Positions 36,565 through 60,771 of a stretch of 64,000 bases of DNA are shown here, piece by piece. The translations under genes were made by a program, and so were the position numbers. This stretch comes from Sinomonas mesophila. Lineage in GTDB: Bacteria; Actinomycetota; Actinomycetes; Actinomycetales; Micrococcaceae. Under the pieces are notes generated by a model. That model had not been told where the DNA came from and did no database searches. It saw only the letters and a program-made list of their open reading frames with translations. The stretch covers positions 124,001-188,000 of the forward strand of contig NZ_KV908322.1 of assembly GCF_001999765.1 (NCBI RefSeq), in the 5' to 3' direction. How positions within the stretch are numbered: position 1 is the first letter of the stretch; the number at the start of each line of letters is the position of its first letter.

Positions 36565-36567
36565 TCC

Positions 36568-38088: not shown

Positions 38089-38125
38089 CCCGAAGCAGCC
38101 TCAGCACCGAACAGAAGGAGGAACC

Positions 38126-40109: not shown

Positions 40110-40265
40110 GAAGCCCCCGTCTTGAGAAGACGCTCGAGAACGCCATTACCGTGCCGGCGAGCACCGTGGGCAACAGCCCCCGCCTGCGCTCCTTCCAGAC
40201 ACAGGCGGCGGCAGTCGCCCACGCCCGGCCGCACGCCAGTTCCGGCCCGAGCACCGGGCGACTGA
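40110..40265 (+). pseudogene. copA 3'-end remnant, partly inverted
   Basis: Positions 40166-40208 read VGNSPRLRSFQTQ, matching the C-terminus of the intact CopA ([14 protein letters not shown]). The 40 bp before it (about 40124-40165) match the preceding CopA codons only on the minus strand (LAGTVMAFSSVFS). The remnant thus contains a small local inversion. It precedes a YHS gene exactly as the intact copA does. Confidence 0.6.
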
Positions 40266-40295
40266 TCCTCTCAGAACCGAACGAAAGGAAACCCC

Positions 40296-40574
40296 ATGTC
40301 CGAGGCACACAACCACGAGGCCGCCCCCGTCCAGGAGCACTCGCACTCCCACTCCCACTCCGAGCACGCCGGCGAAGGCCACTCCCACAGGGTGGCCATG
40401 GCCGATGAGGCCACCGGCGAGTGCCCGGTGATGCTCGGGAACTACGTGGACAAGGAGGATGCCGAGGCCCAGGGCCTCGTCCGCGACTACGAAGGGAATC
40501 GCTACTACCTCTGCTGCGCCGCGTGCGGCCCGCTCTTTGACGCGGATCCCGAGAAGTACCTCGCCGCGCTTTAG
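40296..40574 (+). CDS. His-rich YHS-domain metal-binding protein, copy 1
   Basis: 92 residues, cytosolic. A His-rich N-terminus (seven His in the HSHSHSHSEHAGEGH region, residues 16-30) is joined to a YHS/TRASH-like domain: CPVMLGNYVDKEDAEAQG, then YYLCCAACGPLFDADPEKY, giving four cysteines. Such domains bind copper or other soft metals, so a metallochaperone or buffer is plausible. GAAAGGA precedes ATG 40296. It is about 80 percent identical by eye to the copy at 43114 and more distant from the copy at 56607. It sits behind a copA remnant. Confidence 0.8.
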   Translation: MSEAHNHEAAPVQEHSHSHSHSEHAGEGHSHRVAMADEATGECPVMLGNYVDKEDAEAQGLVRDYEGNRYYLCCAACGPLFDADPEKYLAAL

Positions 40575-40583
40575 GCAACCGAG

Positions 40584-41694
40584 GGGACTGTCAGGTAGCG
40601 GTGGGTCTGGCGCGGCGTGTAGTTAGTTGATTCTTCCGTCGAAGGCGATTGCGGAGGCGTTCAAAGCCGGCTCCACCTCGTGGCCCATCGTGCCCGCCCC
40701 TTGCCCTAGGGGGCCAAGCGAGCGGGTCATGAGGAAGAGGTACTTCAACGTGGTGGCGTCGTTTGGGAAGTGGCCCCTGGCCCTCACGGCGCGCCCATAC
40801 CGGGCGTTGAGGGACTCGATCGCGTTGGTCGAGCAGATCACCCGCCTGATCTCGCGGCGTCCCAGTCCAGGAATGGGGCGAACTCGGGCCAGGCGTTGCG
40901 CCAGAGCCGGGCGATCGCAGGGTACTTCGTGCCCATTTGGCCTCGAACTCCCCGAAGCGTTCCTTGGCTGCGGTCTCGGTCGGGGCGGTGCCTCGGGCAG
41001 GCCCTTGAGCCCGTCGCAGACGGCGATGCTGCACACGTCCTCCACGCCGCGGGTCTTGATCTCGGTCAGGACCCCGAGTCAGTACTTCGCGCCCTCGCCG
41101 CCGTCCCCGGCCCAGTTCCCGAGGATGTCGCGTTCGCCGTCCACCGTGACGCCGAGGACGACGTAGAACGGCTTGTTGCGCACCTGCCCGCCCCGGCCCT
41201 TGACGTGGATCGCGTTCGATGACCACCACCGGGTACACCGGGTCAAGCGGGTTGGCCGACTCGGCCATCTCTTCGGAGACCTTCTCGGTATCCGGGAAAT
41301 CGTGTCCTTGGAGACGGTGGCGCCGTAGACCTCGTCGAAGTGGGCGGCGATCTCCCCGGTGGTCAGGCCGTGGGCCGTCAGCGACAGGATGACCTCGTCG
41401 ATCCCGTCCAGACGCCGCTGGCGCTTCCTGACAGTCGGCGGCTCGAAGGTGCCCTCACGGTCCCGGGGCGCGTCGATTTCCACTGGGCCCACCTCGGTGA
41501 ACACGGTCCTGGTCAGGCCGGCAAGGAGCCACTAGGCTCAAGCCCTGCTCGCGTGCCTACCCCCAGCAGCGACTCCGCGAGCTCCTTCTGATCGATGACC
41601 TCTCCCGTCACGGGATCGATCATCTCCACGGTCTCGGTCATAGCCCTTCCTTTCGGTCAGGCCACGCCGTTCACACCGTTATTCTTACAGTCCC
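40584..41694. mobile_element. IS256-family insertion sequence, decayed
   Basis: The ends are imperfect inverted repeats. Left GGGACTGTCAGGTAGCGGTG (40584-40603) and right, read inward, GGGACTGTAAGAATAACGGTG (41694-41674), matching at about 15 of 21 positions. The length of about 1.1 kb is below the usual 1.3 kb, consistent with an internal deletion. No exact target duplication is seen at the flanks. Confidence 0.7.
40620..41641 (-). pseudogene. IS256 (Mutator-type) transposase, frameshifted
   Basis: Starts at ATG 41641 after AAAGGAAGGG with MTETVEMIDPVTGEVIDQK. Then about 60 residues are missing and the sequence resumes with EVGPVEIDAPRDREGTFEP, RKRQRRLDGIDEVILSL and GLTTGEIAAHFDEVYGA. Later frame changes lead to GERDILGNWAGDGGEGAKY, VCDGLKGLPEA, RRVICSTNAIESLNARYGR and a final RARGHFPND block. 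At least three frameshifts are needed, so no functional transposase is made. Confidence 0.85.
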
Positions 41695-42039
41695 GACCGC
41701 GACGCCAAGACCCGCAGAGTCTTGCAAGGATCTCGTCGGCGATGTTGGTCCAGATCGATGTTGTTCTTCAGTGATCGGGTGGATGTGAGGGTCGCGGCAT
41801 AGTGAGCGCGTGTAGGGGAGAAGTGCCAACCAACCTGATGCCGGTCGCCGAACGAGCGCGGGCCATCGCTGGTCTGCCCCGACATCTCTGCGTCGGGTGG
41901 GGCGCCCTCTGGCAGGCCCTGAAGCTCGAACTGGAACGACTCGCCGCCGCCGTTGTGCGCTTCTCCGGGTCGCTAGGCCGAGGATAGACGAGCGCACGGC
42001 ACCCATGCCAATACCGGCTGACCCTGGCCGGCCCGGTCC
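41695..42039. other. Intergenic, no recognisable gene
   Basis: About 345 bp with short frames only (for example 41802-41987 plus). None shows a recognisable domain or ribosome site. Confidence 0.5.
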
Positions 42040-42215
42040 AGATATGCCGCAGGACCGTGCGGGCTCCTTCGAGCCAATGGTGGCACCGCCCCTGGATCCG
42101 GTGCACGCGGGGGTGTTGGTGGACTGCATCCACGCCAAGGTCCGCGAACGGCACGTCGCGAACCGGCCGATCTACGTGGCACCGGCCCTCACTGCCGAGG
42201 GGACCGCGACGGCCT
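42040..42215 (+). pseudogene. Second IS256 transposase fragment
   Basis: Plus-strand frame reading PQDRAGSFEP joined to PLDPVHAGVLVDCIHAKVRER, HVANRPIYVAPALTAEGT. Both halves are standard IS256 blocks (RDRDGSFEP; PVVFVDCIHVKVRDGQVANRPIYVA), separated in the intact protein by over 60 residues. This is an internally deleted fragment in opposite orientation to the element at 40584. Confidence 0.7.
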
Positions 42216-42439
42216 CAAGGGCCCGACGCCGTGTCAACCTCTGGCGGAAAGACGTCGCCTTGACCGGGTTCGAGATCGGATTCGACGCTCGGCTACCCCT
42301 AGGCCGCCACTGACCAACAGACAACCCAGTTGGCACGAAAAAATCGACAGAGCCGTCGAAAACGACCGAGGTCGACTGAGCAGTGGGAGAGAGATTCGTC
42401 CCAGGCATGTCCCCTCGGCAGAATGGCATACGGCCCGGT

Positions 42440-42870
42440 GACCGTCCTCGTCGTACGTCGAGGACGGTCGTTGCGTGGTCCTTCGTCAGCTGGGCGTGCT
42501 CGACGGTGAGGCATTCGTCCCTGAGCGTCACGTGTCCGGTGATGACGGGGGTGCCTCCTTCAGCAGCGCAGGGTCCGTGGCACGATCAGGGCCCCGATCA
42601 CGAGGGAGACGAGGGCGTCTGCGCGGGTGAAGTTGGTCAGGGCGTTCACGACAGCTGCGATGATCACCGCAGCAGAGCCGAGGGAGGACCAGCAGGCCGA
42701 TAGCAATTACCGGCCAGCCCGATGATCCCGAACCAGAGCATCGTCCCGAAGCCGACCCCGGGCGGTTCGATCAGGCGCCGGAAGGCCTCGACGAGGATGA
42801 ACCCGCCCACGACGAGCAGCAGTCTGGCTGCAGGGCAGCGGCGAGGACCTCTGCCCGCTTGTACCCCACG
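42440..42870 (-). pseudogene. Cation diffusion facilitator remnant
   Basis: Three pieces on the minus strand match CDF exporters: VVGGFILVEAFRRLIEPP and TMLWFGIIGLAGN (42700-42850); SSLGSAAVIIAAVVNALTNF with RADALVSLVIGALIVPRTL (42555-42685); and VITGHVTLRDECLTVEHAQL (42460-42555). Frameshifts and deletions separate them. The second matches VLGDLLGSVAVIIAG of the intact CDF at 54883. Confidence 0.75.
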
Positions 42871-43113
42871 TCCCATGCCCACGGAGAGGGGTTGCGATCA
42901 GGCGCTCCCTGTCCTGCCTTGCATCCGGCGTGCGAGTTCGTGCCCGCTCATCCTTCGTTCTTTCCATCCCTTGGGTCGTTCCATCAGCACGGCAGATACC
43001 GCTCGGGGTGTCTGGCAAGCAGTGGGGAGGAGAGCCAGTCTCCCGGCTCTCCTCCCCGTGGTGTGCCCTGTGGCGGGGCGTGCGTGGACGCTGTGCCCTA
43101 GGGTCCGACTCGC

Positions 43114-43389
43114 CTACAGCACGGCGAGGTACTTCTCAGGGTCCGCGTCGAACATCGGCCCGCACGCGGCGCAGCAGAGGTAGTAGCGGGTGCCCTCGTG
43201 GTCGCGGATGAGGCCCTTGGCCTCGGCATCGGCCTTGTCCACGTAGTTCCCGGGCATCACCGGGCACTCGGCAGTGGTGGCCTCGTCTGCCACGGCGACG
43301 CTGTGGGAGTGGCAGTGCCCCTCGTCGGCGGGCTCGGAGTGGGAGTGCTCCTGGACGGCGGTGGCGTCGTGGTTGTGTGCCTCGCACAT
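43114..43389 (-). CDS. His-rich YHS-domain metal-binding protein, copy 2
   Basis: 91 residues, closely similar to copy 1. The N-terminus is His-rich with an extra cysteine at position 2 and CHSHS later; the YHS part has CPVMPGNYVDKADAEAKG and YYLCCAACGPMFDADPEKY. It is the last gene of the copZ-exported protein-copA-YHS series, 31 bp after copA, with AAAGGA before the ATG. Likely receives or buffers copper beside CopA; that role is inferred from position and domain. Confidence 0.82.
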   Translation of the reverse strand: MCEAHNHDATAVQEHSHSEPADEGHCHSHSVAVADEATTAECPVMPGNYVDKADAEAKGLIRDHEGTRYYLCCAACGPMFDADPEKYLAVL

Positions 43390-43420
43390 GGGGTTTTCCT
43401 TTCGTTGGTTTTCCGGTATC

Positions 43421-45745
43421 TCAGGCGCGCGCCGCTTCGACCGGACGCGGGGTTCGGCTGGGGGCGGGCGACTGCTGGTCCACCGCCTGGCTCTGGAAGG
43501 AGCGCAGGCGGAGGCTGTTGCCGACGACGAAGACGCTGGAGAACGCCATCGCCGCACCGGCAAGCATGGGGTTGAGCAGGCCGAGGGCGGCCAGCGGGAT
43601 CGCGGCAACGTTGTAGGCGAAGGCCCAGAACAGATTGCCCTTGATCGTGCCGAGGGTACGCCGGGAGAGGCGGATCGCATCGGCGGCACTGCGCAGATCG
43701 CCGCGGACGAGGGTCAGGTCGGACGCCTCGATCGCCGCGTCTGTGCCGGTGCCCATCGCGAGCCCGAGGTCCGCCTGGGCCAGCGCGGCGGCGTCGTTGA
43801 CGCCGTCGCCCACCATCGCCACCGTGCGCCCTTCGCCCTGAAGGCGTGCGACGACAGCGGACTTCTCGCTCGGGAGCACCTCGGCGATGACCTGGTCGAT
43901 CCCGACCTCGGCGGCGATGTGCTTTGCCACGACCTCGTTGTCTCCGGTGAGGAGGATGGGGGTCAGGCCAAGGGCCCGGAACTGTCGCACGGCTTCGGCA
44001 CTGGTGGGCTTGACCTGGTCGGCGACAACGAGCACGCCTCGGATCGCACCGTCCCATGCGGCCAGGACCGCCGTCTGGCCGCGCGACTCGGCGGTGCGCT
44101 TTGCCTCGTCGAGCACGGCATCGGAAGCGACCGCCGATTCGTCAAGCAGGCTCTGGCGGCCCACAATCACGCTGTGGCCGTCGACGAGACCGGTGACGCC
44201 CTTGCCCTCGATGTTCCGGAAGTCCCCCACCTCGGGCAGGGGGGCAGCGAGCGCCTCGGTGGCGCCGCGGGCGATGGCCTGCGCGATCGGGTGCTCGGAG
44301 GCGTCCTCGAGCGCGCCGGCAATGCGCAGCAGATCCTCGCGATCCGTGCCGGCGGCGGCGACAGCCTCAACGAGTGTCATCCGGCCCGTTGTCACCGTTC
44401 CTGTCTTGTCGAGCACGACCGTGTCGACGCGCCGGGTGGACTCGAGCACCTCGGGGCCCTTGATCAGGATCCCCAGCTGGGCGCCGCGCCCGGTGCCGAC
44501 CAGGAGTGCGGTCGGCGTGGCCAGGCCTAGGGCGCACGGGCAGGCGATGATGAGCACCGCGACGGCGGCCGTGAACGCCGTCGCGCCCGGGAATCCCGCG
44601 CCGAGCCAGGCGCCCAGGGTCGCCACCGCAACTGCAATGACGATCGGGACGAAGACGCCCGAGACTCTGTCGGCGAGGCGCTGCACCTCAGCCTTCCCGG
44701 ACTGGGCGTCCTCGACGAGCTGGGCGATCTGGGCGAGCTGGGTGTCTGCGCCCACGCGCGTCGCTCGAACGACGAGCCGCCCGCTGGCATTCACGGTCGC
44801 TCCGGTCACGGCATCGCCCGGGCCAACCTCCACTGGCACGGATTCGCCGGTGAGCATCGACGCGTCCACCGCGGAGGTGCCGGTCAGGATCACGCCGTCG
44901 GTGGCGATCTTCTCCCCGGGCCGGACGACGAATTCGTCGCCGACCACGAGCTGCTCGGTCGGGATGCGTGTCTCGACGCCGTCGCGGAGCACGGCGACGT
45001 CCTTCGCGCCCAGCTCGAGCAGGGCCCGCAGTGCGGCGCCGGCCTGGCGCTTGGAGCGCTTCTCGAAGAAGCGTCCGGCCAAGATGAACATGGTCAACCC
45101 AGCGGCGACCTCGAGGTAGATGTTACCCGCGCCGTCGCTCGGGGCGATCGAGAGCTCGAACGCGTGGCGCATCCCGGGCATCCCGGCGGTGCCGAGGAAG
45201 AGCGCGTACAGCGACCACAGGAACGCCGCGAGCGTGCCGAGAGAGACGAGGGTGTCCATGGTGGCGGCACCGTGGCGCAGGTTGGTCCAGGCAGCCTTGT
45301 GGAAGGGGAATGCCGCCCAGAGGATCACGGGAGCGGCGAGGGCCAGAGAGGCCCACTGCCAGTAGGTGAACTGGAGGGCCGGGACCATGGCCATGAGGAT
45401 GACCGGTACCGACAGTACGCACGATGCAATCAGGCGCCGCCGCAGGTCCGCGAGCTCATGGTCAGGCTCCTCGCCCCCCTCCGAGGGCGATGCCTGCTCG
45501 GGAGGGGCGGGCAAGGCCGCGGTGTAGCCGGTCTTCTGGACCTCGAGGATGAGCAGCTGGGGGTCGTAGCCCTCGGGGACGAGCACCTTCGCCTTCTCGG
45601 TGGCGTAGTTCACGCTCGCCTCGACCCCGTCCATCCGGTTGAGCTTCTTCTCGATCCGGTTGGCGCAGGATGCGCAGGTCATCCCGCCGATCTCGAGCTC
45701 AAAGCTCGCGCGCGCAGATTCGGTCGGTGCTGTTGTCGTTGACAT
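43421..45745 (-). CDS. copA: Copper-exporting P-type ATPase
   Basis: Pumps Cu(I) out of the cell. 774 residues: one HMA domain (about 14-78) with GMTCASC at 21-27; two N-terminal helices; A domain with LTGES (298-302); CPC ion-binding motif at 402-404 in [16 protein letters not shown] at 446-450; the HP motif in SEHPIAQAI; and [10 protein letters not shown] near the C-terminus. All P1B-1 residues appear intact. It ends [15 protein letters not shown] with a short Ala/Pro tail. It belongs to the minus-strand copper operon starting at 46928. Confidence 0.95.
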
Positions 45746-45771
45746 GGTGATCCGTTCTCAGGTGCGTGGGC

Positions 45772-46716
45772 TCAATGACCGTGGCTCTCGCCGGGGGTCT
45801 GGGCAGGCTGCGTGCCCGGCGCGCCGTCTGCCGGGAGCACGAACGCGGCAGAGTGGACGGCGCCGTCGATTTGGAAGTCGAAGTAGAGCAGGTACCGCCC
45901 AGAGGTCGGAGCCTCTGCCGCGAACCTCACGGTCGGTCCGCTGAGCTGGCCGCTCTGGGGCTCAGCGCCTTCGGGATGCACGTGCAGATACGCGAGGTCG
46001 CCCTCGCGCAGCGCGACAAGATGGCCGAACGCGCCGAGGTAGGGCTGCAGGGTCGTGACCGGGGCGCCGTCTTTCGAGACGGAGAGCGTGAGCTCCGACG
46101 AGGCGCCGCCCTGGATGTCCCCGGCGATCGTCACCTCGAAGCCGTCGACATTCGCGGTGCGCGTCTCTGCGGGAGAGGCTGCCGGGGCGACCGTCCCAGC
46201 GACCTCAACAGTGCGGGTGAGGGTGAGCGGATTCGAGCTGCCGCCCGGAACGAAGTCGGTGAAGATGCGGTAGGTGCCTGCCGCCTTCCAGGTCCACGGG
46301 ATGGACCAGGAGCCGTCCGGGCCGCGCTCAGGATGGACGTGGCGGAACTCCGAGCCGTCGGTGCGGACGACGATCAGATGCAGGTCCTTCTCGTGCGAAG
46401 TCACATACTCCAGCAGCGGCTGTCCGTCGGCATCGCCGATGGTGAAGGAGAGCGTGCCGGCGGCTCCGACCTCGGCAGGGGCGCTGACCGGACCCAGCTG
46501 GTAGCCCTCAGCCGCAAGCGTCACCCCGCGTGTGGGGCCTTCGTTTCCGCCCTGCGCCTGTCCCATCGCCGCCATGTGGTCCTGCCCCTGACCCATCGCC
46601 GCAACCCGGTCCTGCGCCACGGTCTTCGGGATTGTCGCGCCCGTGACCGTGAACGCCGCGCCGAAGGCGACGGCGAGGCTGGCCGCGTACAGGCCAAGGC
46701 GCGTGGCGGTGCGCAT
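45772..46716 (-). CDS. Exported Met/His-containing protein of a copper operon
   Basis: 314 residues with an N-terminal signal or anchor helix (about 8-30). A Met/Gln/His spacer (MGQGQDHMAAMGQAQGG, about 40-57) could bind copper. Two beta-rich repeats of similar layout follow: FTIGDADGQPLLEYVTSHEKDLHLIVVRTDGSEFRHVHPE and LSVSKDGAPVTTLQPYLGAFGHLVALREGDLAYLHVHPEGAEP-type segments, each ending in HVHPE. The tail is GESHGH. Homologues are widespread next to actinobacterial copA; function unknown. It overlaps the copZ stop by one base. Confidence 0.8.
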   Translation of the reverse strand: MRTATRLGLYAASLAVAFGAAFTVTGATIPKTVAQDRVAAMGQGQDHMAAMGQAQGGNEGPTRGVTLAAEGYQLGPVSAPAEVGAAGTLSFTIGDADGQPLLEYVTSHEKDLHLIVVRTDGSEFRHVHPERGPDGSWSIPWTWKAAGTYRIFTDFVPGGSSNPLTLTRTVEVAGTVAPAASPAETRTANVDGFEVTIAGDIQGGASSELTLSVSKDGAPVTTLQPYLGAFGHLVALREGDLAYLHVHPEGAEPQSGQLSGPTVRFAAEAPTSGRYLLYFDFQIDGAVHSAAFVLPADGAPGTQPAQTPGESHGH

Positions 46717-46928
46717 CAGACCCGCGCCGCCGAGTAGCCTGCCTCGTCCACGGCGGCGATCACCGCAGCGTCGTCAGCAGGGCCATCGGAGCCTGTGACC
46801 ACGAGCCGTCCGGTGGAGGCGCTGATCTCAATCCCCTTGACCCCGGGAATCTGCCCGACCTCGTTGCGGATCGAGACCTCGCAGTGGCCGCAGCTCATTC
46901 CAGTGACCTGGTATTCGGTGGTGCTCAT
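46716..46928 (-). CDS. copZ: Copper chaperone, HMA domain
   Basis: 70-residue single HMA domain with the metal-binding loop GMSCGHCEVS (10-19) and a normal ferredoxin-like fold pattern. Delivers Cu(I) to CopA or CsoR. AAGGGATCC precedes the ATG at 46928. First gene of the copper operon, with two CsoR-type boxes upstream. Confidence 0.92.
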   Translation of the reverse strand: MSTTEYQVTGMSCGHCEVSIRNEVGQIPGVKGIEISASTGRLVVTGSDGPADDAAVIAAVDEAGYSAARV

Positions 46929-46960
46929 CAGTGGATCCCTTCGTATTGGCAGCTAGTCAT

Positions 46961-46977
46961 ATACCCCTAGTGGGTAT
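46961..46977. promoter_or_regulatory. CsoR-type box, copZ site 1
   Basis: ATACCCCTAGTGGGTAT, inverted arms ATACCC/GGGTAT around 5 bp. It lies 33 bp before copZ. Confidence 0.75.
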
Positions 46978-46992
46978 CTCTAAGACAAAGAT

Positions 46993-47009
46993 ATACCCAA
47001 CGGGGGTAC
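46993..47009. promoter_or_regulatory. CsoR-type box, copZ site 2
   Basis: ATACCCAACGGGGGTAC, one end mismatch. It is centred 32 bp (three helical turns) from site 1, and both lie in the divergent region between copZ and the flavoprotein gene. Confidence 0.7.
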
Positions 47010-47109
47010 CCGATGCAAGAGTATGGCGAACGTGAGATTCGACCAAGATCCCGTGCCCACCGGTGCTCGTCAGTTGGTACCTGCATGGGGTATCTTCGGA
47101 CTGGCATAC

Positions 47110-47126
47110 ATACCCTGTAGGGGTAT
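47110..47126. promoter_or_regulatory. CsoR-type box before the flavoprotein gene
   Basis: ATACCCTGTAGGGGTAT, a perfect-armed box 39 bp before the GTG at 47165. It implies that this oxidoreductase is copper-induced. Confidence 0.75.
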
Positions 47127-47164
47127 ATCCAAGGTGCCGAGCGCTTATGGAAGGAAGTTGTACC

Positions 47165-48328
47165 GTGAATCAGGAAGCGAACCCGAGCGTCCTCATCCTC
47201 GGCGGGGGAGCGGCGGGGCGCGCATGCGCCCAGGAGCTACGCACTCGCGGATTCGCAGGCAGGATCGACATGCTCGACGCCGAGCCGGGCGGCGCGATCA
47301 ACCGCACGCTGCTGGACAAGGCCCTGCTTCCGGGGCTGCTCACGCGGGAGCAGATCGCCCTCCCGGCGGTCGAAGGAGTGGCGGTGACGTCGGGCGAAGC
47401 CACTGCCGCCGACCTCGGGACGAAAACGGTCGAGCTACGTGATGGCCGGCGTCTAAGCGCCGACGCCGTCGTGATCGCAACGGGTGCCATGCCTCGCCAC
47501 TCGGACGGCATCGACGTCGCCGCGGAGGTGGCACTGCACCGGCTGCACACCGCCGATGACGCAGACGCCCTCCGCGAGTCGATCCCACAGGCCGATGGAC
47601 GACGGATCGCCGTGCTCGGCGCGGGATTCATCGGCACCGAGCTTGCCAGCCACTATGTTGCCGAGGGCGCCGAGGTAGTCCTCGTGGGCCGGTCGTCTAC
47701 CCCTCTGGTCAGCGCACTTGGCGCCGAGATCTCCCCTCGGCTGGCCGCCCTGCAGCGTGAGCGGACGGACGCACGACTGGGAGCTGCGGTACGCGCGATC
47801 ACGCCGAACGGTGCCCGCGCCCAGCTCTCCCTCTCCGACGGCAGCTCCATCGAGGTTGACGCTGTCATCCTCGCGCAGGGTGCGGTTCCCGCGACCGCAT
47901 GGATAGGGGTGCCGGACGGGATCCGAGTGGACGACCGCCTGCGCGGGCCTGAAGGCGGATGGTACGCGGCGGGAAGCGCGGCATACATCGCCTCCGGCGG
48001 CGAGAGGCTCACGACGGACCACTGGGACGCCGCCGTCGCCCAGGGCCGGCACGCCGCGCGGACGATCCTCCACGACTTCCTGGGCGGCGAAGACCCGGGT
48101 CCCTATCGGCCGACGACGGGATTCACCCTCTCCGCGTTCGGCTCGACGATCGCCGCACGCGGCCTGCGGCGGCCCGACGGCTCGGAGCGAGCGGCCTCCT
48201 GGCCAATCGAACCGCCACGGCCCGACGCCGTGCTGACCGAATTCGTGGACGCTGGTGGAGAAGTGACGGGCGTAGCGGGGTTCAACGCCGGCCCTGCCGT
48301 GGTCCGCGCGGCGGCGGCGATCGCCTGA
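47165..48328 (+). CDS. FAD-dependent pyridine nucleotide-disulfide oxidoreductase-like protein
   Basis: 387 residues. FAD-binding GGGAAG at 13-18, a DLGTKTVELRDG strand, a VVIATGAMPR block near 100-110, NAD(P)-binding VLGAGFIGTELA at about 143, and a C-terminal GGEW-like WYAAGSAAYI FAD segment. The layout fits ferredoxin reductase/CoA-disulfide reductase relatives. No CxxxxC disulfide is seen near the FAD, so the electron acceptor is unclear. GTG 47165 is chosen from AAGGAAG (47151-47157). The CsoR box places it in the copper regulon. Confidence 0.82.
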   Translation: MNQEANPSVLILGGGAAGRACAQELRTRGFAGRIDMLDAEPGGAINRTLLDKALLPGLLTREQIALPAVEGVAVTSGEATAADLGTKTVELRDGRRLSADAVVIATGAMPRHSDGIDVAAEVALHRLHTADDADALRESIPQADGRRIAVLGAGFIGTELASHYVAEGAEVVLVGRSSTPLVSALGAEISPRLAALQRERTDARLGAAVRAITPNGARAQLSLSDGSSIEVDAVILAQGAVPATAWIGVPDGIRVDDRLRGPEGGWYAAGSAAYIASGGERLTTDHWDAAVAQGRHAARTILHDFLGGEDPGPYRPTTGFTLSAFGSTIAARGLRRPDGSERAASWPIEPPRPDAVLTEFVDAGGEVTGVAGFNAGPAVVRAAAAIA

Positions 48329-48780: not shown

Positions 48781-48821
48781 GACGACGGCGACGCGCCCAC
48801 GGCGGGCGCGTCGCCGTCGTC
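48781..48821 (-). terminator. Terminator of csoR
   Basis: Perfect 18-bp stem GACGACGGCGACGCGCCC with its complement at 48804-48821 and loop ACGGC. It starts 31 bp past the csoR stop on the minus strand. Confidence 0.75.
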
Positions 48822-48851
48822 GTCCTCAGCTGTGGCCCTGCGTTGCCTCGG

Positions 48852-49199
48852 CTATGAACGCACCAGCCTGGCAATCGCGTCTGACGCCTCTTTGATCTTG
48901 ATCTCAGATCCCGGTCCGCCGAGGCGGGCGGCGCCGACAACGCAGTGCCGGAGATGGTCGTCGAGCAGGCCCAGTGCGACACGCTCGAGGGCTTTGTTGA
49001 GGGCGGCGACCTGGGTGAGGATGTCGATGCAGTACTGCTCTTCGTCGACCATCCGGCTGATGCCCCGCACCTGTCCTTCGATGCGCTTGAGGCGCGCCTG
49101 GTAGTTGGCCTTATCAGTGATGTAGGCGTGATGAGAGTCGCCGTGTGCGGCCGGTGCTAGATCTGTGCCGAAAGCTGAATCGTCGGCCATGATGCTCAT
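48852..49199 (-). CDS. csoR: Copper-sensing transcriptional repressor CsoR
   Basis: 115-residue all-helical repressor that leaves DNA on binding Cu(I). The ligand triad Cys57 (EEQYCIDI), His82 and Cys86 (DDHLRHCV) has the same 25- and 4-residue spacing as mycobacterial CsoR (Cys36-His61-Cys65). RLKRIEGQVRGISRM is the N-terminal family signature. A 25-residue His-containing extension precedes it; the ATG at 49190 is an alternative start. Two boxes at 49294 and 49328 indicate autoregulation. Confidence 0.93.
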   Translation of the reverse strand: MSIMADDSAFGTDLAPAAHGDSHHAYITDKANYQARLKRIEGQVRGISRMVDEEQYCIDILTQVAALNKALERVALGLLDDHLRHCVVGAARLGGPGSEIKIKEASDAIARLVRS

Positions 49200-49293
49200 G
49201 ATGGCAGTTTCCCTTCGTGCGGCCTATGCCGTTTCCCGCTGTACGGTGGGGGCCTGGCTGCGTCGTGGTCGGCCCTCGCGGCTCTTCTTCGAC

Positions 49294-49310
49294 CTACCCC
49301 TACGGGGTAT
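49294..49310. promoter_or_regulatory. CsoR-type box, csoR site 1
   Basis: CTACCCCTACGGGGTAT, one mismatch in the first base. It lies 95 bp before csoR. Confidence 0.7.
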
Positions 49311-49327
49311 AGATGGTTTTCTTTACT

Positions 49328-49344
49328 ATACCCTACGAGGGTAT
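49328..49344. promoter_or_regulatory. CsoR-type box, csoR site 2
   Basis: ATACCCTACGAGGGTAT, perfect inverted arms. The two csoR sites are centred 34 bp apart, as at copZ (32 bp). Confidence 0.75.
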
Positions 49345-50386: not shown

Positions 50387-51629
50387 CACCGTGCTCCAAA
50401 CTCTTCGTGGCGGTGGCCCGGGCGTCATGCCGGGGCCAGGACAGGAAGGCACCTACGGCCCCCATGATTGCAAGGATAGTCAACGCGAGCGAAGTCGGGC
50501 CGAGGCCAGCCGCTGCCCCGACGATGCCGGCCAGAGGATAGCTGACGATGTAGCAGGCGTGGGAGAGGGAGAACTGAGCTGTGAACACATACGGCCGGGT
50601 CTCCTCGGTCGAGGCCTGCCGCAGCAGCCTCGCCGACGGGGTCAGGATCGTGGAATTCCCGGCCCCGAGCAGGAACCACAGTCCCAGCAGCCACCACCAG
50701 GTCCCGTTGCCTGCAGGCAGGAACAGCAGCGCTGTCGCCCCGGCCAGCGCGGCGGGGAGGAGGGCGGCGCCGGTGAGCATGACGGTCCGGTCGCCCACAC
50801 GCTCGAGCAGCCGCGGTGCGCTCAGGGCGACGACCATCGACCCGATGCCGAAGGAGGCCAGCGCGATTGCCAGATCGGTGTCGGGGCCGGTGGAGGATCT
50901 CCCGGACGATGACGACGCTGTTCACCAGTACTAGGGCCGTCGGGGCGGACACGACTAGGTTCAGGGCCATCAGGGACCGCAGCCGCCGGTTGCGCCAGAA
51001 GATCCGGACGCCGAGTGTGGTGCGGTGCCATAGTGTGGCTGCCCCGCCCCCCTGCGCTCCAGTTGCGGGCACGGCGGCGGTCACGACCATGAGGGCGGAG
51101 AACAGGAAGCCGCCGACCGTGCCCAGGAACAGGCTGCTGTAGCTGAGCACGCTTAGCAGCAGGGCCGCGATGGCCGGGCTGGCCAGCGCCTCCAGGTCAT
51201 AGGCGAGCCGGGAGAGTGACAGTGCCCGGGTGTAGTCCTTCTCGTCCTTCAGCACGGATGGAATCAGGGACTGGAAGGCGGGAGTGAACGTCGCCGAGGC
51301 CGACTGCAGCAGGAAGATCACCACGTAGATCTGCCAGGCCTCGGTGATGAACGGCAGGCAGAGCGCCATCGCCGCGCGCACCAGGTCCGCGCCGATCAGC
51401 ACCGGCTTCTTCGGAAGGCGCGCCACGACGGCGTTGATCACCGGCGCGAACCCCACGTAGGCGAACATCTTGACCGTCAGCGCCGTGCCCATCACGGCTC
51501 CGGCATCCTTGCCGGCCAGGTCGAACGCCAGCAGTCCCACCGCGACTGTCAGCAGGCCGTGCCCAGCAGCGCCACCACCTGCGCGGCGAACAGCCGCCGG
51601 TACGTCACATCTCGCAAAACAGTCGACAT
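50346..51629 (-). pseudogene. MFS exporter interrupted by two frameshifts
   Basis: Reads MSTVLRDVTYRRLFAAQVVALLGT, then a one-base loss near 51556, then LLTVAVGLLAFDLAGKDAG to SVVIVREILHRP, then an extra base in a GGGG run (plus strand 50883-50886), then DTDLAIALASFGIGSMVVAL to the end near 50346. Both frames keep good codon use and strong similarity to the intact MFS at 52083, so the breaks are recent or are sequencing errors. The protein is related to permeases with 12 helices; substrate unknown. It is followed by its ArsR partner. Confidence 0.8.
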
Positions 51630-51656
51630 CCCGAACCTCAGAGTCTGAGTGCCTCT

Positions 51657-51695
51657 ATGCACCTGAGGTAAGTGCATAAGTGCATTGATATGCAC
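51657..51695. promoter_or_regulatory. ArsR/SmtB-type operator candidate
   Basis: Two overlapping inverted pairs of ATGCAC/GTGCAT: 51657-51662 with 51672-51677, and GTGCAT-TGAT-ATGCAC at 51680-51695. It lies 28-66 bp before the frameshifted MFS gene. This type of TGCA-rich palindrome is typical for SmtB-like repressors; the cognate regulator would be the 50012 or 53342 protein. Confidence 0.55.
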
Positions 51696-51943
51696 AAATC
51701 GTCGCACACCCGATGGGTGCGTGGCCAGCCCGCCTCGGCCTCCGGCTGGACGGCGGCCCTCCAGGGACGGCACTGGCGGCCATGGACTTCCCGGAGCCCG
51801 AGGCGCCGAGCAGACACAGACCCCGGCCCGCCAGGGGCTCGAAGCTGAGCCCTATCCCTGTTCTGGCCGCGGATGCTGATCCGCAGATTCTCGGATCTGC
51901 ACACTTGCCAGGTTGCGCATCACAAACTGCCGTAAGCTGGACT

Positions 51944-51955
51944 GATTGCCAACAA
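51944..51955. promoter_or_regulatory. FCD-GntR type operator, site 4
   Basis: ATTGCCAACAAT, one mismatch to the consensus, in the divergent region between the two MFS genes, 128 bp before the intact one. The rest of 51696-52082 shows no gene. Confidence 0.5.
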
Positions 51956-52082
51956 TCTGACGTAACGAAGATCCCAGGCTCCCGTCCCAAGGAATGGCGA
52001 GGCCAGCCCGCACTCCTGCGCACCCCGCCCCGCGAGAGTCAAATTGTTGCTTATGTGCGCAACTAATGGGATATTGGGTGCC

Positions 52083-53345
52083 ATGCTTCGTATCCTGCGA
52101 CTCCCCGTCATCCGGCGTATGCTCGCTGCGCATGTGCTTGCCCTGCTCGGGACGGGACTGTCCAGCATCGCCCTCGGCTTTGTGGCCTTCGATCTGGCCC
52201 GCGACCAGTCCGGCTCGGTACTCGGAACGGTCCTAGCCATCAAGATGCTCAGCTTCATGGTCGTGGCGCCCCTCGCGGCCGCAGTTCTGGTCCGTGTCCC
52301 GCCACGGGCAGTCCTGGTCGGATCCGACGTGCTGCGGGCCGTTGTCGCCCTCGGGCTGCCGTTCGTGTCGGAGGTGTGGCAGGTCTACGCGCTCATCGTT
52401 GTGCTGCATGTTGCCTCAGCCGTGTTCACGCCGACGTTCCAGTCGACTCTCCCCCGAGTGCTCCCGGACGACCGGGATTATGGGAATGCCCTGGCCCTTT
52501 CCCGGCTGGCCTACGACGTCGAGGCCGTGGTCTCGCCCATGCTGACCGCGCTCCTGCTCCTTGCCATGCCGGCCCAGCACCTGTTCTTCGGCACCGCGCT
52601 GGGCTTCGCCGGATCCGCGGCGCTCCTCGCATCGCTGGCTCTGCCCCTGGCCCTGCCCTCGGAGAGCCACGGCGAACCGTTCCTGAAGCGCCTGACTCTG
52701 GGCAGCAGGCTGTTGTTCACTACACCCGCCCTCCGCGGGATCTTCGCCCTGCACCTCGCAGTTGCCGGCAGCGGGAGCTTTGCTCTGGTCCAGACGGTTT
52801 CGGTGGTCCGCGGTCCCCTGGGGTCGGACGAGACGGCAGTCGCTCTCGCCCTGGGCGCCATGGGTGCCGGCTCGATCTGCGCAGCACTGGCTGCGCCCCG
52901 TCTGGTGGCCCGCCAAGGCACCCGCCGGGTTCTGCTGGTCGCAGGAATCCTGGTGAGTGTGCCGCCCTTTGGCGTGCCGTGGGCGCTGTCGAGCACCGGC
53001 ATCCCCGGCCTCGCCCTCTTGGCCGCCCTGTGGTTTGCCTTGGGTGCGGGGTACTCCGGGGTACTGACGCCGATCGGTCAGGTGATCCGGGCCACGATAC
53101 CCGAAACAGAACTCCCCGCGGTCTTCGCTGCCCAGTTCTCACTGGCCCACGGCTGGTGGCTTATCTGCTTTCCCTTGGCCGGATGGCTGGGAGCGCTGAC
53201 GTCGCTCGGGGCGGCCGCCGTTGCCATGGCCAGCATCTCCTTGGCCGCGACCGTCGCGGCGTCATTCATCTGGAAGCGTCCGGATGTGGCGACGGCGCAC
53301 GCTGTCGGCAATGCTGCCAGAATGACAGAGGAAGCCCGGCTGTGA
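52083..53345 (+). CDS. MFS transporter
   Basis: 420-residue permease with about 12 helices, related along its length to the frameshifted MFS at 50346 (shared ALLGTGL, VAFDLARD/LAFDLAGK, TPTFQS/TPAFQS, LSRLAYDVEA/LSRLAYDLEA). Substrate unknown; its ArsR neighbour and island suggest metal or metalloid export. The start at 52083 matches the conserved N-terminus; 52044 would add residues with no ribosome site. It overlaps the next gene by 4 bp (GTGA). Confidence 0.85.
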   Translation: MLRILRLPVIRRMLAAHVLALLGTGLSSIALGFVAFDLARDQSGSVLGTVLAIKMLSFMVVAPLAAAVLVRVPPRAVLVGSDVLRAVVALGLPFVSEVWQVYALIVVLHVASAVFTPTFQSTLPRVLPDDRDYGNALALSRLAYDVEAVVSPMLTALLLLAMPAQHLFFGTALGFAGSAALLASLALPLALPSESHGEPFLKRLTLGSRLLFTTPALRGIFALHLAVAGSGSFALVQTVSVVRGPLGSDETAVALALGAMGAGSICAALAAPRLVARQGTRRVLLVAGILVSVPPFGVPWALSSTGIPGLALLAALWFALGAGYSGVLTPIGQVIRATIPETELPAVFAAQFSLAHGWWLICFPLAGWLGALTSLGAAAVAMASISLAATVAASFIWKRPDVATAHAVGNAARMTEEARL

Positions 53346-53758
53346 ACCACGCCAAGAAGGCAGCCAACGCCGCCGCGGAGGCTGCCAACGCTGCCAAGCC
53401 GCTGGCGGAGGTCTCGCTTCCGTCCGACGCAGACCTCGACGGCGCGGCCGAGTTGGCGCGCCTAGTCGCCGACCGGACGCGGCTGGGCATTCTGGCGCTG
53501 CTGGCCCCGCGCGAACTCTCGGTTGGGGAGATCGCCCAGAAACTGAACCGCCCCGTCGCCTCCGTCTCGCAGCATCTGGCCAAGCTGCGGATCGGGCGGC
53601 TGGTGAGTTCCCGCCGGGCGGGAACCACGATCTACTCACTCACGCTTGCAGAGCGAGCACGCGCTCTACGACCGGCCCCCCACCACGAAGCTCCTCCGCC
53701 CGGGGCCGAAGACCACGGGCGTCGGGCCAGCCTCCTGCCTGTCACAGACCGTTCGTAG
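53342..53758 (+). CDS. ArsR family regulator
   Basis: 138 residues. An Ala/Asn-rich N-terminal stretch is followed by a winged helix (ELARLVADRTRLGILALL, LSVGEIAQKLNRPVASVSQHLAKLRIGRLVSSRRAGTTIYSL split across the domain). The tail contains paired histidines (HHEAPPP, EDHGRR) that could bind metal but do not match a standard site. The GTG start overlaps the MFS stop, so both are one transcript. The 3' end overlaps the convergent GntR gene by 17 bp. Confidence 0.78.
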   Translation: MNHAKKAANAAAEAANAAKPLAEVSLPSDADLDGAAELARLVADRTRLGILALLAPRELSVGEIAQKLNRPVASVSQHLAKLRIGRLVSSRRAGTTIYSLTLAERARALRPAPHHEAPPPGAEDHGRRASLLPVTDRS

Positions 53759-54512
53759 CCGCCGGCCCGTGGTGGTCCAGGGACCGTGCTTCGAGGGTTG
53801 CCGTTGCATGGCCTTCCGCTCCCGAGAGGTGCCTGTGGAATGCGGAGTGGATCTGCGTCATGGTACCATCCGCAATCAGTTTCGCCATGGCCATGTGGTC
53901 GTGGCTCAAGGTGTTCGGGGTCGGATAGGCCTGTTCGAGGTTGAACATGCAGATCAAAGATTCGGCGGCCAGGGTGCTGTAGGCACGGAGCAGTCGCGAG
54001 TTTCCAGCGTGGACGATCAGGGCTGTGTGGAAATCAAGGTCCAGGCGTGAAACAAGCGCCCAGTCCGAGGCGGCCAGTGCCGCCGGCAGTTGCGAGGCGA
54101 TGCCTACTAACTCATCGGAGACTTCCCTCCGTCGCTGGGCCGACCGGGCCGTGATGATCTCTGCCGCACCGATCTCCAGAATCTCCCTGACGCCGTAGAT
54201 CTCCTCAACGTCCTGATTCGTCAGTTCGATCACGAAGACGCCCCGGTTGGGCCTGTTGACCAACAGGCCCTCCTGGCACAGGCGCTGGAGCGCCTCGCGC
54301 ACGGATGGACGCGAAACGCCGAGCTGCCTCGCCACGAGGGCCTCGTTGATCTGCTCGCCGGGTGCGAAGAGGCCGTGGACGATCCGCTCGCGAAGCAGGT
54401 CCGCAATCCTGACGGCGATGGGTTTCGGTGTGATGGCGGAAAGGCCCGCTGCTTTGGTCATCTCTTCCCGATTCCTCTCTTTCCTGGCGAGAGGCCCTCT
54501 GGCAGCCGTCAT
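53742..54512 (-). CDS. GntR family regulator, FCD subfamily, second copy
   Basis: 256 residues. Winged helix around 30-95 (GLFAPGEQINEALVARQLGVSRPSVREAL, GVFVIEL) and FCD domain 100-235 with EEIYGVREILEIGAAEI, DLDFHTALIVHAG, a LSHDHMAMAK histidine pair and FHRHLSGAE, so the metal ligands are present. ATG 54512 is chosen because AGGAG lies 5 nt upstream; ATG 54461 is a weaker choice. A decayed relative lies directly upstream at 54560. Confidence 0.87.
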   Translation of the reverse strand: MTAARGPLARKERNREEMTKAAGLSAITPKPIAVRIADLLRERIVHGLFAPGEQINEALVARQLGVSRPSVREALQRLCQEGLLVNRPNRGVFVIELTNQDVEEIYGVREILEIGAAEIITARSAQRRREVSDELVGIASQLPAALAASDWALVSRLDLDFHTALIVHAGNSRLLRAYSTLAAESLICMFNLEQAYPTPNTLSHDHMAMAKLIADGTMTQIHSAFHRHLSGAEGHATATLEARSLDHHGPAATNGL

Positions 54513-54559
54513 CACACTCCTGTTGGCAGTCGGTCCCCGGGCCGCTCCCGCCTAAGTCT

Positions 54560-54855
54560 AGAGCCGTCGGTGACCGCGCTCCGCAGCACTCACCGCGAGG
54601 GGGATCTCGTGCGGCGGACCGGTAGCGACCAGTTCGGAGATAGCCCTGTGGTCCTCTTTTCCGGACTCGGCGACAAGCGTCATATTGAACTGAAGGTCCA
54701 CAGGGATGAACCTGTCCCGGTCGCGCACTTCCCATCGGGCCCGGCCGAACGGGCCACGATGGCATCCGCGGCGGCGAGCTCCACGGTCTCACGGGCAAAG
54801 TAGATGTCCTCGACGTCTTCCCTGGTCCGCTCGGCCAGCTGGTCGGGCGGGCAGG
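54560..54855 (-). pseudogene. GntR/FCD regulator fragment
   Basis: The minus strand reads LAERTREDVEDIYFARETV then ELAAADAIVARSAGPDGK, then shifts frame to LQFNMTLVAESGKEDHRAIS with ELVATGPPHEIPLAV. These are FCD-domain segments. The DNA-binding domain is gone and at least one frameshift is present. 54513-54559 and 54856-54882 hold nothing else. Confidence 0.7.
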
Positions 54856-54882
54856 GCGGGAGGACCGAAGGTCCTGGGCTAC

Positions 54883-55941
54883 TTAGGCATGGACTTCCTG
54901 CTCGTGGGAGGCATGGTCCCGGGATTCGATCTGGAGCGTGCTGTGGCCGGTGTCGAAGTGCTCTCCGAGGCAGGCGAGGAGCTCATCGAGTATCGCGTGG
55001 GATCCGTCAGCAATCGTCCCATCGTCCACGACGACGTGGGCGGAGAACACGGGCACACCCGAGGTGATGGTCCAGGCGTGCATGTCGTGCACGTCCTGCA
55101 CGCCGGGAACACTCAGCAGGTGGGCGCGCGTCTCCTCAAGGTCCATGTCCTTCGGAGTGGCTTCCATCAGCACATTCAGAACGTCCTTCAGCAGGCTCCA
55201 CGCCCTTGGCAGGATCAGGAGTGCAATGGCTATCGAGGCGATCTGGTCAGCGAGCATCCAGCCTGTCAGCCAGATGATGATGCCGGCGATGATCACCGCC
55301 ACCGAGCCGAGCAGGTCACCCAGGACCTCCAAGTAGGCGCCCCGAACATTGAGGCTTTCCTTCTGGCCCGACTGGAGAATCAGCAACGAAACGAGGTTCG
55401 CCACGGCCCCGGCAATCGCCGCAAACAGCATGGGCCCGGATTCGACCTCGACGTCCGTGCCGAGGCGCTGGACCGCCTCGACGAAGATCAGGACGGCAAT
55501 CGCCGCGATTGCGACTCCGTTCAGCAGGGCGGCGAGCACCTCGACGCGCTGGTAGCCGAAGGTCCGCTTCGCGGACGCCGGTCGCGTCGCGATGACGCTG
55601 GCAATCAGGGCGATGAAGACTCCCGTCGCGTCCGTGAGCATGTGCCCGGCGTCGGCCAGTAGGGCCAGGGAGTTGGAGATCATCGCCCCGACCACCTGCA
55701 TCAGGAAGATCGACGCGGTGATGCACAGCACGATGATCAGTTTCTTGCGGTGTCTTCCGGTGGCCGTCGAGTGGTCCCCCAGACCGTGGCTGTGGCCGTG
55801 GTGCCCGTGGTCGTCTGCCTTGGCCCTCGGTGCGCGATGGCCCGCGCTGAAGGCCCACCGGTGATGGTGGCCGCCGTGGCCATGCCCGTGACCCTGGTGG
55901 CTCGGGGCCGTCGGAGTCGGGGCTTTGCTGGGTGAAGTCAT
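54883..55941 (-). CDS. Cation diffusion facilitator exporter (CzcD type)
   Basis: Exports divalent metal, probably Zn/Co/Ni, in exchange for protons. 352 residues: a His-rich N-terminus (HGHGHGGHHH and HGHHGHSHG), six helices, the metal site pattern LADAGHMLTDATG in helix 2 and its counterpart LEVLGDLLGSVAV in helix 5, and a C-terminal cytoplasmic domain with QDVHDMHAWTI. ATG 55941 gives the usual CDF start; 55953 is an alternative. A GntR-type site lies 27 bp upstream, so this exporter may share control with the importer at 34867. Confidence 0.9.
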   Translation of the reverse strand: MTSPSKAPTPTAPSHQGHGHGHGGHHHRWAFSAGHRAPRAKADDHGHHGHSHGLGDHSTATGRHRKKLIIVLCITASIFLMQVVGAMISNSLALLADAGHMLTDATGVFIALIASVIATRPASAKRTFGYQRVEVLAALLNGVAIAAIAVLIFVEAVQRLGTDVEVESGPMLFAAIAGAVANLVSLLILQSGQKESLNVRGAYLEVLGDLLGSVAVIIAGIIIWLTGWMLADQIASIAIALLILPRAWSLLKDVLNVLMEATPKDMDLEETRAHLLSVPGVQDVHDMHAWTITSGVPVFSAHVVVDDGTIADGSHAILDELLACLGEHFDTGHSTLQIESRDHASHEQEVHA

Positions 55942-55967
55942 GCCGGCAAACATAGCAGGGTCGTCAG

Positions 55968-55979
55968 ATTGTTGACAAT
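55968..55979. promoter_or_regulatory. FCD-GntR type operator, site 5
   Basis: ATTGTTGACAAT, the perfect form of the site, between the CDF gene and the divergent copZ2. Confidence 0.6.
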
Positions 55980-56012
55980 GGGCCATCAACCGTTCGGCCT
56001 CGTTTGACTTGC

Positions 56013-56029
56013 ATACCCCCCTTGGGTAT
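56013..56029. promoter_or_regulatory. CsoR-type box, copZ2 site 1
   Basis: ATACCCCCCTTGGGTAT, perfect arms, 55 bp before copZ2. Confidence 0.75.
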
Positions 56030-56044
56030 AAAAGAGGCATGCGC

Positions 56045-56061
56045 ATACCCTATAGGGGTAC
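56045..56061. promoter_or_regulatory. CsoR-type box, copZ2 site 2
   Basis: ATACCCTATAGGGGTAC, one end mismatch, centred 32 bp from site 1. This is the same spacing as before copZ. Confidence 0.75.
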
Positions 56062-56083
56062 TTAATCAAGGGAGGGAACGTTC

Positions 56084-56296
56084 ATGGCCACGGTTGAATT
56101 CCAGGTAACAGGCATGACGTGCGGCCACTGCGAGCTGTCCATCCGCGAAGAGGTGCACGAGGTGGCGGGCGTCGAGTCTGTCGAGGTAAGCCACCAGACA
56201 GGAAGGCTGGTGGTCACTGGCGACCGAACTGTCGACGCCGCTGCAGTCATCGCCGCCGTCAAGGAGGCTGGCTACCTGGGGGTGCTGTCGTCGTAA
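56084..56296 (+). CDS. copZ: Copper chaperone, HMA domain, second copy
   Basis: 70 residues with the loop GMTCGHCELS (10-19) and a TGRLVVTG strand shared with the first CopZ (about 60 percent identical by eye). GGGAGGGAACGTTC precedes the ATG. It is followed by a copA remnant and a YHS gene, so it heads a second, eroded copper operon. Confidence 0.9.
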   Translation: MATVEFQVTGMTCGHCELSIREEVHEVAGVESVEVSHQTGRLVVTGDRTVDAAAVIAAVKEAGYLGVLSS

Positions 56297-56329
56297 AGGC
56301 AGCATGACGGCTGGGGCCTACGCAGCGAC

Positions 56330-56545
56330 TGCGGCCGCGACTCGATCCGGCTCGCGCGCTGGACCCTCGGCACAATCAAGACCCACCTTCGCCTACAAGG
56401 TCGCCGCGATCCCCTGGCCGCCCGGCCTGCTGAACCAATGCTCGCAGGAGCCGCGATAGCGTTCTCCAGCGTCTTTGTGGTCATCAAAGGTCTTCCGCCT
56501 GCGCACTTCAAGAGCCAGACGGGCAATACGTCACCGGCCACTGCG
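56330..56545 (+). pseudogene. copA C-terminal remnant
   Basis: Plus-strand pieces ARWTLGTIKTHL (56350-56395) and [19 protein letters not shown] (56438-56494), then FKSQTG, correspond in order to [30 protein letters not shown] and FQSQA at the CopA C-terminus. They are in different frames with deletions between them. It lies between copZ2 and YHS copy 3, where an intact copA would be expected. Confidence 0.75.
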
Positions 56546-56606
56546 CACTCCCGTGCACGGCAGCCGATCGACGAACCCACAACCCCATCCACCGAAAGGA
56601 ACCCCC

Positions 56607-56861
56607 ATGGGAAGCTGCTGTAGCACGAACAACACCCCCACCAACAGCAAGCGCGAGGACCTGACCCTCACCACCGCACCGGCACAGGCCGACGACGCTG
56701 TCACTACCTGCCCGGTTATGGTCGGCACCACAGTAGTGAAGGCTGTCGCAGAGTCCGCCGGCCTCTTCCGCGACCACGAAGGCAAGCGCTACTGGTTCTG
56801 CTGCGCCGGCTGCGGCCCGGCCTTCGACGCTGACCCGGCAAAGTACGCGCACGCCGTCTGA
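56607..56861 (+). CDS. Cys-rich YHS-domain metal-binding protein, copy 3
   Basis: 84 residues. The N-terminus is MGSCCS followed by a Thr/Asn-rich spacer instead of the His-rich segment of copies 1 and 2. The YHS domain has CPVMVGTTVVKAVAESAG and RYWFCCAGCGPAFDADPAKY, keeping the cysteine set. GAAAGGA precedes the ATG at 56607. The paired N-terminal cysteines may add a soft-metal site. Confidence 0.8.
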   Translation: MGSCCSTNNTPTNSKREDLTLTTAPAQADDAVTTCPVMVGTTVVKAVAESAGLFRDHEGKRYWFCCAGCGPAFDADPAKYAHAV

Positions 56862-60723: not shown

Positions 60724-60771
60724 GCCGCTGCCTCCTTGGTCGCTCACTGGGCCAGACTGCCTCGATCTACA

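Follow-up and report, generated by a model that had tools for sequence, protein, structure and literature searches.

In high-GC Gram-positive bacteria, CopZ, CopA and thiols are usually named as the main buffers of cytosolic copper. The archaeal copTMA cluster encodes CopM, described as a TRASH metallochaperone that is cotranscribed with copA and proposed as a copper chaperone (PMC3595675, PMC5328820). In the adenylyl cyclase of Mycobacterium phlei, a YHS domain is reported to give the copper response, with one Asp and three Cys (D178, C181, C204 and C208) as proposed ligands (PMC4626032). Such domains are also described within pumps: among ten CopA-like proteins that were tested in E. coli, three were predicted to contain YHS (PMC11082258), while for a rhizobial Cu-ATPase group the N-terminus is reported to carry an H-rich segment with two TRASH/YHS domains (PMC5552934). 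For a Kocuria strain, "TRASH/YHS domain metallochaperones" are mentioned in passing (PMC13388538). The literature searched yielded no study of small, copA-linked YHS proteins like the three encoded in the copper island analysed here, which lies in a stretch of 64,000 nucleotides from Sinomonas mesophila (contig NZ_KV908322.1, positions 124,001 to 188,000), called the window below.

The three genes, YHS1 (92 aa, 40296..40574, + strand), YHS2 (91 aa, 43114..43389, − strand) and YHS3 (84 aa, 56607..56861, + strand), are intact open reading frames (ORFs) preceded by AAAGGA-type ribosome sites, as the initial annotation had stated. Its count of one intact copA and two wrecks was borne out by alignment of the remnants: YHS2 stands behind the intact copA1 (43421..45745, − strand; a Cu P1B-type ATPase of 774 aa), and YHS1 and YHS3 follow copA 3′ debris. 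The termini have diverged as claimed, with a His-rich tail in YHS2 and in YHS1, where it accompanies a CPVM...CCxxC core, and a GSCC tail in YHS3. On the Pfam profile PF04945 (gathering score 30.3 bits), YHS1 and YHS3 scored above the threshold (30.9 and 33.7 bits); YHS2 fell below it at 25.5 bits, yet is 77% identical to YHS1. A search of the 4.0-Mb genome with this profile at E ≤ 0.001 gave no YHS beyond these three, and none of them reached the gathering score of TRASH PF24273 (17.2–19.7 bits vs 27). Judging from their sequences and surroundings, the small YHS proteins are rather likely to be cytosolic Cu(I)-binding accessory proteins of mobile, CsoR-controlled copper resistance.

By description, they resemble CopM in being small, stand-alone TRASH/YHS-type proteins linked to copA. 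However, CopM is reported as archaeal, with 56 and 71 aa in S. metallicus, encoded upstream of copA and under CopT, whereas the window proteins are encoded downstream of copA, are associated with CsoR-type boxes and have a His- or Cys-rich tail and a C-x2-M core. Gene order and boxes are compatible with CopM-like cotranscription with copA and with copper induction, and the YHS proteins may work like CopM, as a buffer or feeder for export ATPases. The M. phlei cyclase is alike in having an actinobacterial YHS domain, there with a copper response, but it is a fused sensor; relative to its reported ligands, the window proteins have Cys for Asp, Met for the first Cys and an extra Cys after C72. 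In CopA-type ATPases, YHS/TRASH is a domain of the pump, while in the island it is a separate protein, fused in one confirmed record. With CopZ the proteins share small size, absence of a visible signal and the same operon, and they would presumably serve the same pump. CopZ belongs to the HMA family, in contrast, and the window YHS proteins gave no HMA match in the Pfam scan.

Relatives were gathered with two core patterns, and the best 80 of 300 loci, ranked by similarity to YHS2 and not a random sample, were named and examined. Apart from YHS, 65 of the 80 also contain a copZ, not counting copA's own HMA domain. The core has the form C-x2-M ... CC-x2-C. C-x2-M (outside the search patterns, as is C73) and the CC were found in all 71 distinct proteins, 68 from the named loci and three from the window; L061, L062 and L071 are the same protein and were counted once. 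L084 was excluded, and so was L033 (4969-5240, Arthrobacter Hiyo8) for a frameshift in its tail, which falls between MCEAHNH and the part of the tail that follows and is either real or a sequencing error. The second ligand pair, C-x3-C, is present as C72 and C76 and is invariant, together with the added C73, in an alignment of 61 sequences. Canonical YHS domains carry D-x2-C (DPVCGM) at the first pair, and by eye, 25 other YHS loci (24 weak phylum matches and L028) showed D-x2-C in 21 cases and C-x2-C in three, with one masked; they were gathered by profile, since a regular-expression search for canonical motifs gave none. The replacement of Asp by Cys and of the first Cys by Met would suit Cu(I).

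Of the tails of at least 15 residues, 65 of 68 hold CC or at least three His, with start codons assigned by rule and L061, L095 and L101 excluded for short starts; His makes up 12.5% of the tail vs 1.0% of the core. AlphaFold predicted a confident core, with block means of the predicted local distance difference test (pLDDT) above 90 for residues 41–80, and a low-confidence tail. By sequence, the closest match among solved proteins was to YHS stretches of phenol hydroxylase (E 6e-5 over 28 residues). It is quite improbable that Zn(II) or another thiophilic metal occupies the core in a structural role, with the copper linkage arising from a general metal-island context. YHS/TRASH is related to zinc-binding folds. 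A TRASH protein, L24e, binds Cd in a crystal, as told in PMC4626032, but the boxes and neighbours of the present genes are of copper type, and the changes from Asp to Cys and from Cys to Met constitute a soft-ligand shift. This actinobacterial subfamily is under-described and probably copper-regulated.

Regulation was approached through the pattern TACCCN5GGGTA, which fits TAC-X9-GTA, reported as the form of the operators bound by CsoR of S. lividans (PMC3902906). The window contains nine such boxes at no more than one mismatch, eight of them perfect, vs 0.43 expected. Two (46962-46976 and 46994-47008) stand before copZ1 (HMA; 46716..46928, − strand), and YHS2 is the last gene of the copZ1-X-copA1-YHS2 series behind them. 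Two more (56014-56028 and 56046-56060) lie between a cation efflux gene and the intact copZ2 (HMA; 56084..56296, + strand), behind which come a copA remnant and YHS3. Other boxes precede an oxidoreductase gene (47111-47125), csoR (49295-49309 and 49329-49343; gene at 48852..49199, − strand) and a DUF6153 gene upstream of a multicopper oxidase (60773-60787). YHS2 and YHS3 are in units with CsoR-type boxes, and YHS3, most of whose copA is lost, best backs a role of its own for YHS. For YHS1, no box was found in 1.3 kb upstream, even with two mismatches, nor was a sigma-70-type promoter match, a weak test for such a genome. The consensus ATACCCCN3GGGTAT with three mismatches gave 8 matches vs 5.0 expected, nothing above chance, and no box with N4 spacing was found.

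The linkage seen in the window is conserved elsewhere: copA is directly upstream of YHS on the same strand in 65 of the 80 loci (56 of 68 distinct cores), with a median gap of 37 bp. A second set of 48 loci (41 distinct) had 28 outside the 80, one of which is the window's YHS3; among the remaining 27 distinct loci, copA was upstream in 25. Among the 65 copA-YHS loci, a second ATPase follows in 23, and copA reads through in a single frame in 61, runs into a contig end in two and changes frame in two, so that decay of copA with survival of YHS, suggested by the initial annotation, does not hold as a general rule. The two frame changes, each with an intact YHS downstream, are in Microbacterium sp. 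Se63.02b (L109) and Nesterenkonia sp. PF2B19 (L097); real decay and sequence error are both possible. The L109 genome has a second, whole copA-YHS on the same contig (L056), parallel to the window. In plasmid pTC2 of Paenarthrobacter aurescens (L171, 6001-6219), a YHS match directly follows copA at a place where the (incomplete) table lists no gene.

Such tight order could mean that YHS serves CopA alone, as a partner or a regulatory, detached cytosolic metal-binding domain, and is useless away from its copA. Fusions point the same way: Tsukamurella tyrosinosolvens has a natural CopA-YHS fusion in a single 859-aa ORF (one record), and in L028 a canonical YHS shares one open frame with a CopA-like part. 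Further "fused" flags were disregarded, most having arisen where BLAST read through a stop. We nevertheless hold exclusive service to CopA to be unlikely, since 15 of the 80 loci lack a copA upstream, a CsoR-type box stands near YHS in 12 of the 15, and six of them precede a different, second Cu-type ATPase about 38% identical to copA1. One of the copA-less loci, L060, is an intact copZ-YHS-ATPase unit whose ATPase scores above the NCBIfam copper-ATPase cut-off; it provides a natural precedent for the copZ2-YHS3 arrangement without copA. The others include five Tsukamurella loci with YHS divergent from copA-copZ, L052 with an opposite-strand ATPase and L036 with a DUF326 gene, which we take to be Csp-like, beside ResB and cytochrome assembly genes. 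Copper-type genes thus surround most of the loci that have no copA upstream.

What is new here is the regulation, namely the operator near YHS where copA is not upstream. The 80 loci contain 139 perfect boxes vs 0.75 expected from composition (one mononucleotide shuffle gave 1). A perfect box within 400 bp upstream was found for 12 of the 15 YHS genes without copA upstream and for none of the 65 behind copA (P = 8e-12; in distinct loci 9/12 vs 0/56, P = 4e-9), the YHS start of L084 being set approximately at 4950 in these counts. In 11 of the 12 positives, L036, L086, L091, L102 and L112 among them, the box stands 36–95 bp upstream of YHS. With the second set pooled in, the ratio was 10/14 vs 2/81 (P = 6e-9, counting L146 as positive). 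The contrast therefore holds, although it is not absolute and is weaker in the second, smaller set. Because YHS genes without copA upstream are mostly near a CsoR-type operator, the role of the protein does not appear tied to copA alone.

Several observations weigh against a copper-carrying role of its own for YHS. Five of the 12 box positives are the Tsukamurella loci, with boxes in the gap to the divergent copZ; those of L052 likewise stand between YHS and a divergent gene, and those of L060 precede copZ (−341 and −310). There were three misses, L084 with a 1-mismatch box only and L049 and L089 with none. In the second set, a near box also occurs at 2 of the 25 YHS genes that follow copA (L014 and L133); of the two without copA upstream, L146 has its box 498 bp upstream of the match, and L017, where YHS adjoins a csoR-family gene, has two 1-mismatch boxes only (about −160 and −45). 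L086 has a box, yet the scan of its neighbours recognised no copper gene. The boxes themselves suggest co-regulation, not function. A CC at the second pair also occurs in 4 of the 25 other YHS loci, so the extra Cys is not unique, and Foldseek gave no significant match, the top ones being phenol hydroxylase enzymes (best E 0.22). Finally, matches are sporadic, with 38 of 396 genomes of the order above 75 bits (a gap follows, down to 40 bits) and 1 of 15 in the genus, which indicates that YHS is dispensable.

If YHS were instead a partner in copper relay or sensing, for example passing copper to CsoR or an oxidoreductase, it would not be a buffer. Matches of csoR type occur in 53 of the 80 loci, but csoR commonly accompanies copper operons. 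YHS adjoins a Pyr_redox gene like that of the cop operon in the copA-less loci L052 and L089, and the M. phlei YHS is reported to act as a sensor domain (PMC4626032). The Pfam scan of the window proteins found no further domain apart from weak sub-threshold matches, and there seems little chance that relay or sensing is their task.

Whether YHS is kept for itself was addressed by comparing substitutions in the core, with omega calculated by NG86. Core omega was 0.24 for YHS1-YHS2, 0.20 for YHS2-Hiyo8 and 0.28 for YHS3 and its Arthrobacter SF27 relative, with a range of 0.20–0.59 over ten pairs. Tail omega was 0.38–0.86 in close pairs and 1.3–1.9 in distant pairs, whose alignment carries little meaning; in Hiyo8 the tail starts out in a different frame. 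The YHS3-SF27 core differs by 13 synonymous and 11 nonsynonymous changes (P = 4e-4) and the YHS1-YHS2 core by 8 and 8 (P = 0.01). With changes polarised by Hiyo8 and others, the YHS2 branch has 4 synonymous and 2 nonsynonymous changes (P = 0.02), while the YHS1 branch, with 4 and 5, is not significant (P = 0.10). All of these are plain binomial P values computed from site counts, uncorrected for transitions or codon bias, and part of the time compared precedes the loss of copA. Constraint on the core, which the initial annotation had asked for as purifying selection, is supported by the pairwise comparisons, while on the YHS1 branch alone it is not significant.

The same data bear on small-target survival, in which the larger copA (2.3 kb) was hit first and the short YHS genes have just not broken yet, which would call for no selection on the window's YHS genes. 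In simulations, a neutral gene of the size of YHS1 stayed open in 51% of cases at 21 substitutions (59% when the start codon was not required), YHS1 lacks both a near operator and a significant branch test, and the island contains transposase and copA debris. The simulation alone is no proof of selection on YHS1. Keeping the frame and all 14 invariant core residues is rarer under neutrality, 1.3% for YHS3 at 27 substitutions and 4.8% for YHS1 at 21. Gaps in the YHS genes were in frame in 4 of 4 cases (three in YHS1-YHS2, of 12, 6 and 3 nt, and one in YHS3-SF27) vs 1 of 17 in the adjoining copA remnants (13 and 4 gaps; Fisher P = 8e-4), a comparison sensitive to where the aligner puts the gaps and to the natural variability of the copA tail, and one that takes in a little spacer. 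Together with the YHS3-SF27 core, these results make small-target survival a doubtful explanation, within the limit that the spans reach back before copA loss. The claim that YHS is valued in its own right stands at family level, on the operator contrast and core constraint, and does not extend to each copy: support is good for the family, fair for YHS3 and lacking for YHS1, which, without operator and without significant branch selection, may be a relic.

The remnants differ in the coding signal that they keep. Before YHS1 there remain a copA 3′ remnant with spacer of about 131 bp (40165..40295, + strand) and, preceding it, an inverted 38-bp copA 3′ piece (40126..40163, − strand); the differences of the 131-bp remnant from copA1 by codon position (6/7/7) retain no coding signature. 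The remnant between copZ2 and YHS3 (56321..56601, + strand; 13 gap runs), with frameshifted copA 3′ sequence at about 56321-56522, keeps a third-position excess (14, 6 and 24 differences), so the copA of YHS3 died relatively late. Its top score was with the copA of SF27, narrowly ahead of others, while two inverted copA pieces downstream of YHS3 (57379..57507 and 57514..57618, − strand) are nearest to Hiyo8 copA and copA1. As the downstream pieces are of copA1/Hiyo8 type and the YHS3 remnant is SF27-like, two copA lineages probably entered the island. Elsewhere in the genome there is an ATPase 59% identical to copA1 (open, in the part read, up to a stop after RLTRFKR), another at about 43/39%, and weaker partial matches.

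The island itself is a mobile copper island of ordinary make. Between YHS1 and YHS2 are the remains of a Mutator-family transposase (40623..41504, − strand). Between copZ1 and copA1 stands a recurrent operon member (45772..46716, − strand) with no Pfam or NCBIfam match; its N-terminus is signal- or anchor-like, and it recurs in many of the 80 loci. The FAD/NAD(P)H oxidoreductase (Pyr_redox_2; 47063..48328, + strand) probably has its true start downstream of box 47111. It is ferredoxin-reductase-like, similar enzymes are found in the Hiyo8 and Micrococcus luteus plasmid copper clusters, and a Cu-linked reductase role may be conceived for it. The His-rich cation diffusion facilitator (54883..56046, − strand), divergent from copZ2, probably starts inside this ORF; the boxes that the two genes have in common suggest copper control of metal efflux. 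The multicopper oxidase (58481..60016, − strand) is preceded by the DUF6153 gene (60322..60747, − strand). Directly before YHS1, at 34867-40021, lies a peptide/nickel-type ABC transporter with an ATPase, SBP_bac_5 and a long permease, whose substrate-binding protein is nearest to NikA (nickel) types, far under the cut-off.

Within the genus, the only genome with a YHS match is that of S. mesophila itself; as the genome has no other YHS and the 14 other genus genomes have none, the island was probably acquired. In the family, 16 of 149 genomes including its own have a match, one of them (G114) of the canonical kind. In the order, where at most 13 candidates were scored per genome, only this genome has three matches above 75 bits and three others have two, among the matches listed. 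Plasmids carry relatives in 17 records, of which 12 are mobilizable or conjugative. A conjugative plasmid of Arthrobacter Hiyo8 carries csoR, reductase, copZ, copA and YHS in the order of the window, its YHS being 86% identical to YHS2; MFS-type pieces stand between csoR and reductase there, and the window has such pieces elsewhere.

For these Cys/Met YHS proteins as copper carriers, we propose that, when copper rises, CsoR would leave the TACCCN5GGGTA operators and YHS would be made, normally from a copZ-(unknown)-copA-YHS unit. C42, M45, C72/C73 and C76 would be the Cu(I) ligands of the folded core, with further, loose copper sites provided by the disordered tail rich in His or Cys. YHS could then buffer copper and hand it over to whichever export ATPase is present, CopA or, at some copA-less loci, the second Cu-type ATPase. 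In the window, copA1-YHS2 would be the working pump module and copZ2-YHS3 a reduced one, in which the pump was lost while operators, CopZ and YHS were kept, and which could lean on copA1; YHS1 would be a probable relic or an unregulated extra copy. More tentatively, stand-alone Cys/Met YHS may represent a second, CopZ-independent Cu(I) carrier in Actinobacteria, a portable part of the CsoR regulon with a tunable tail, able to serve different export ATPases, fusible to CopA and kept after pump loss. If this is true, a plasmid-borne, probably copper-regulated Cys/Met YHS would add another cytosolic copper carrier, and the copA-less loci with a CsoR-type box make a separate role of YHS directly testable.

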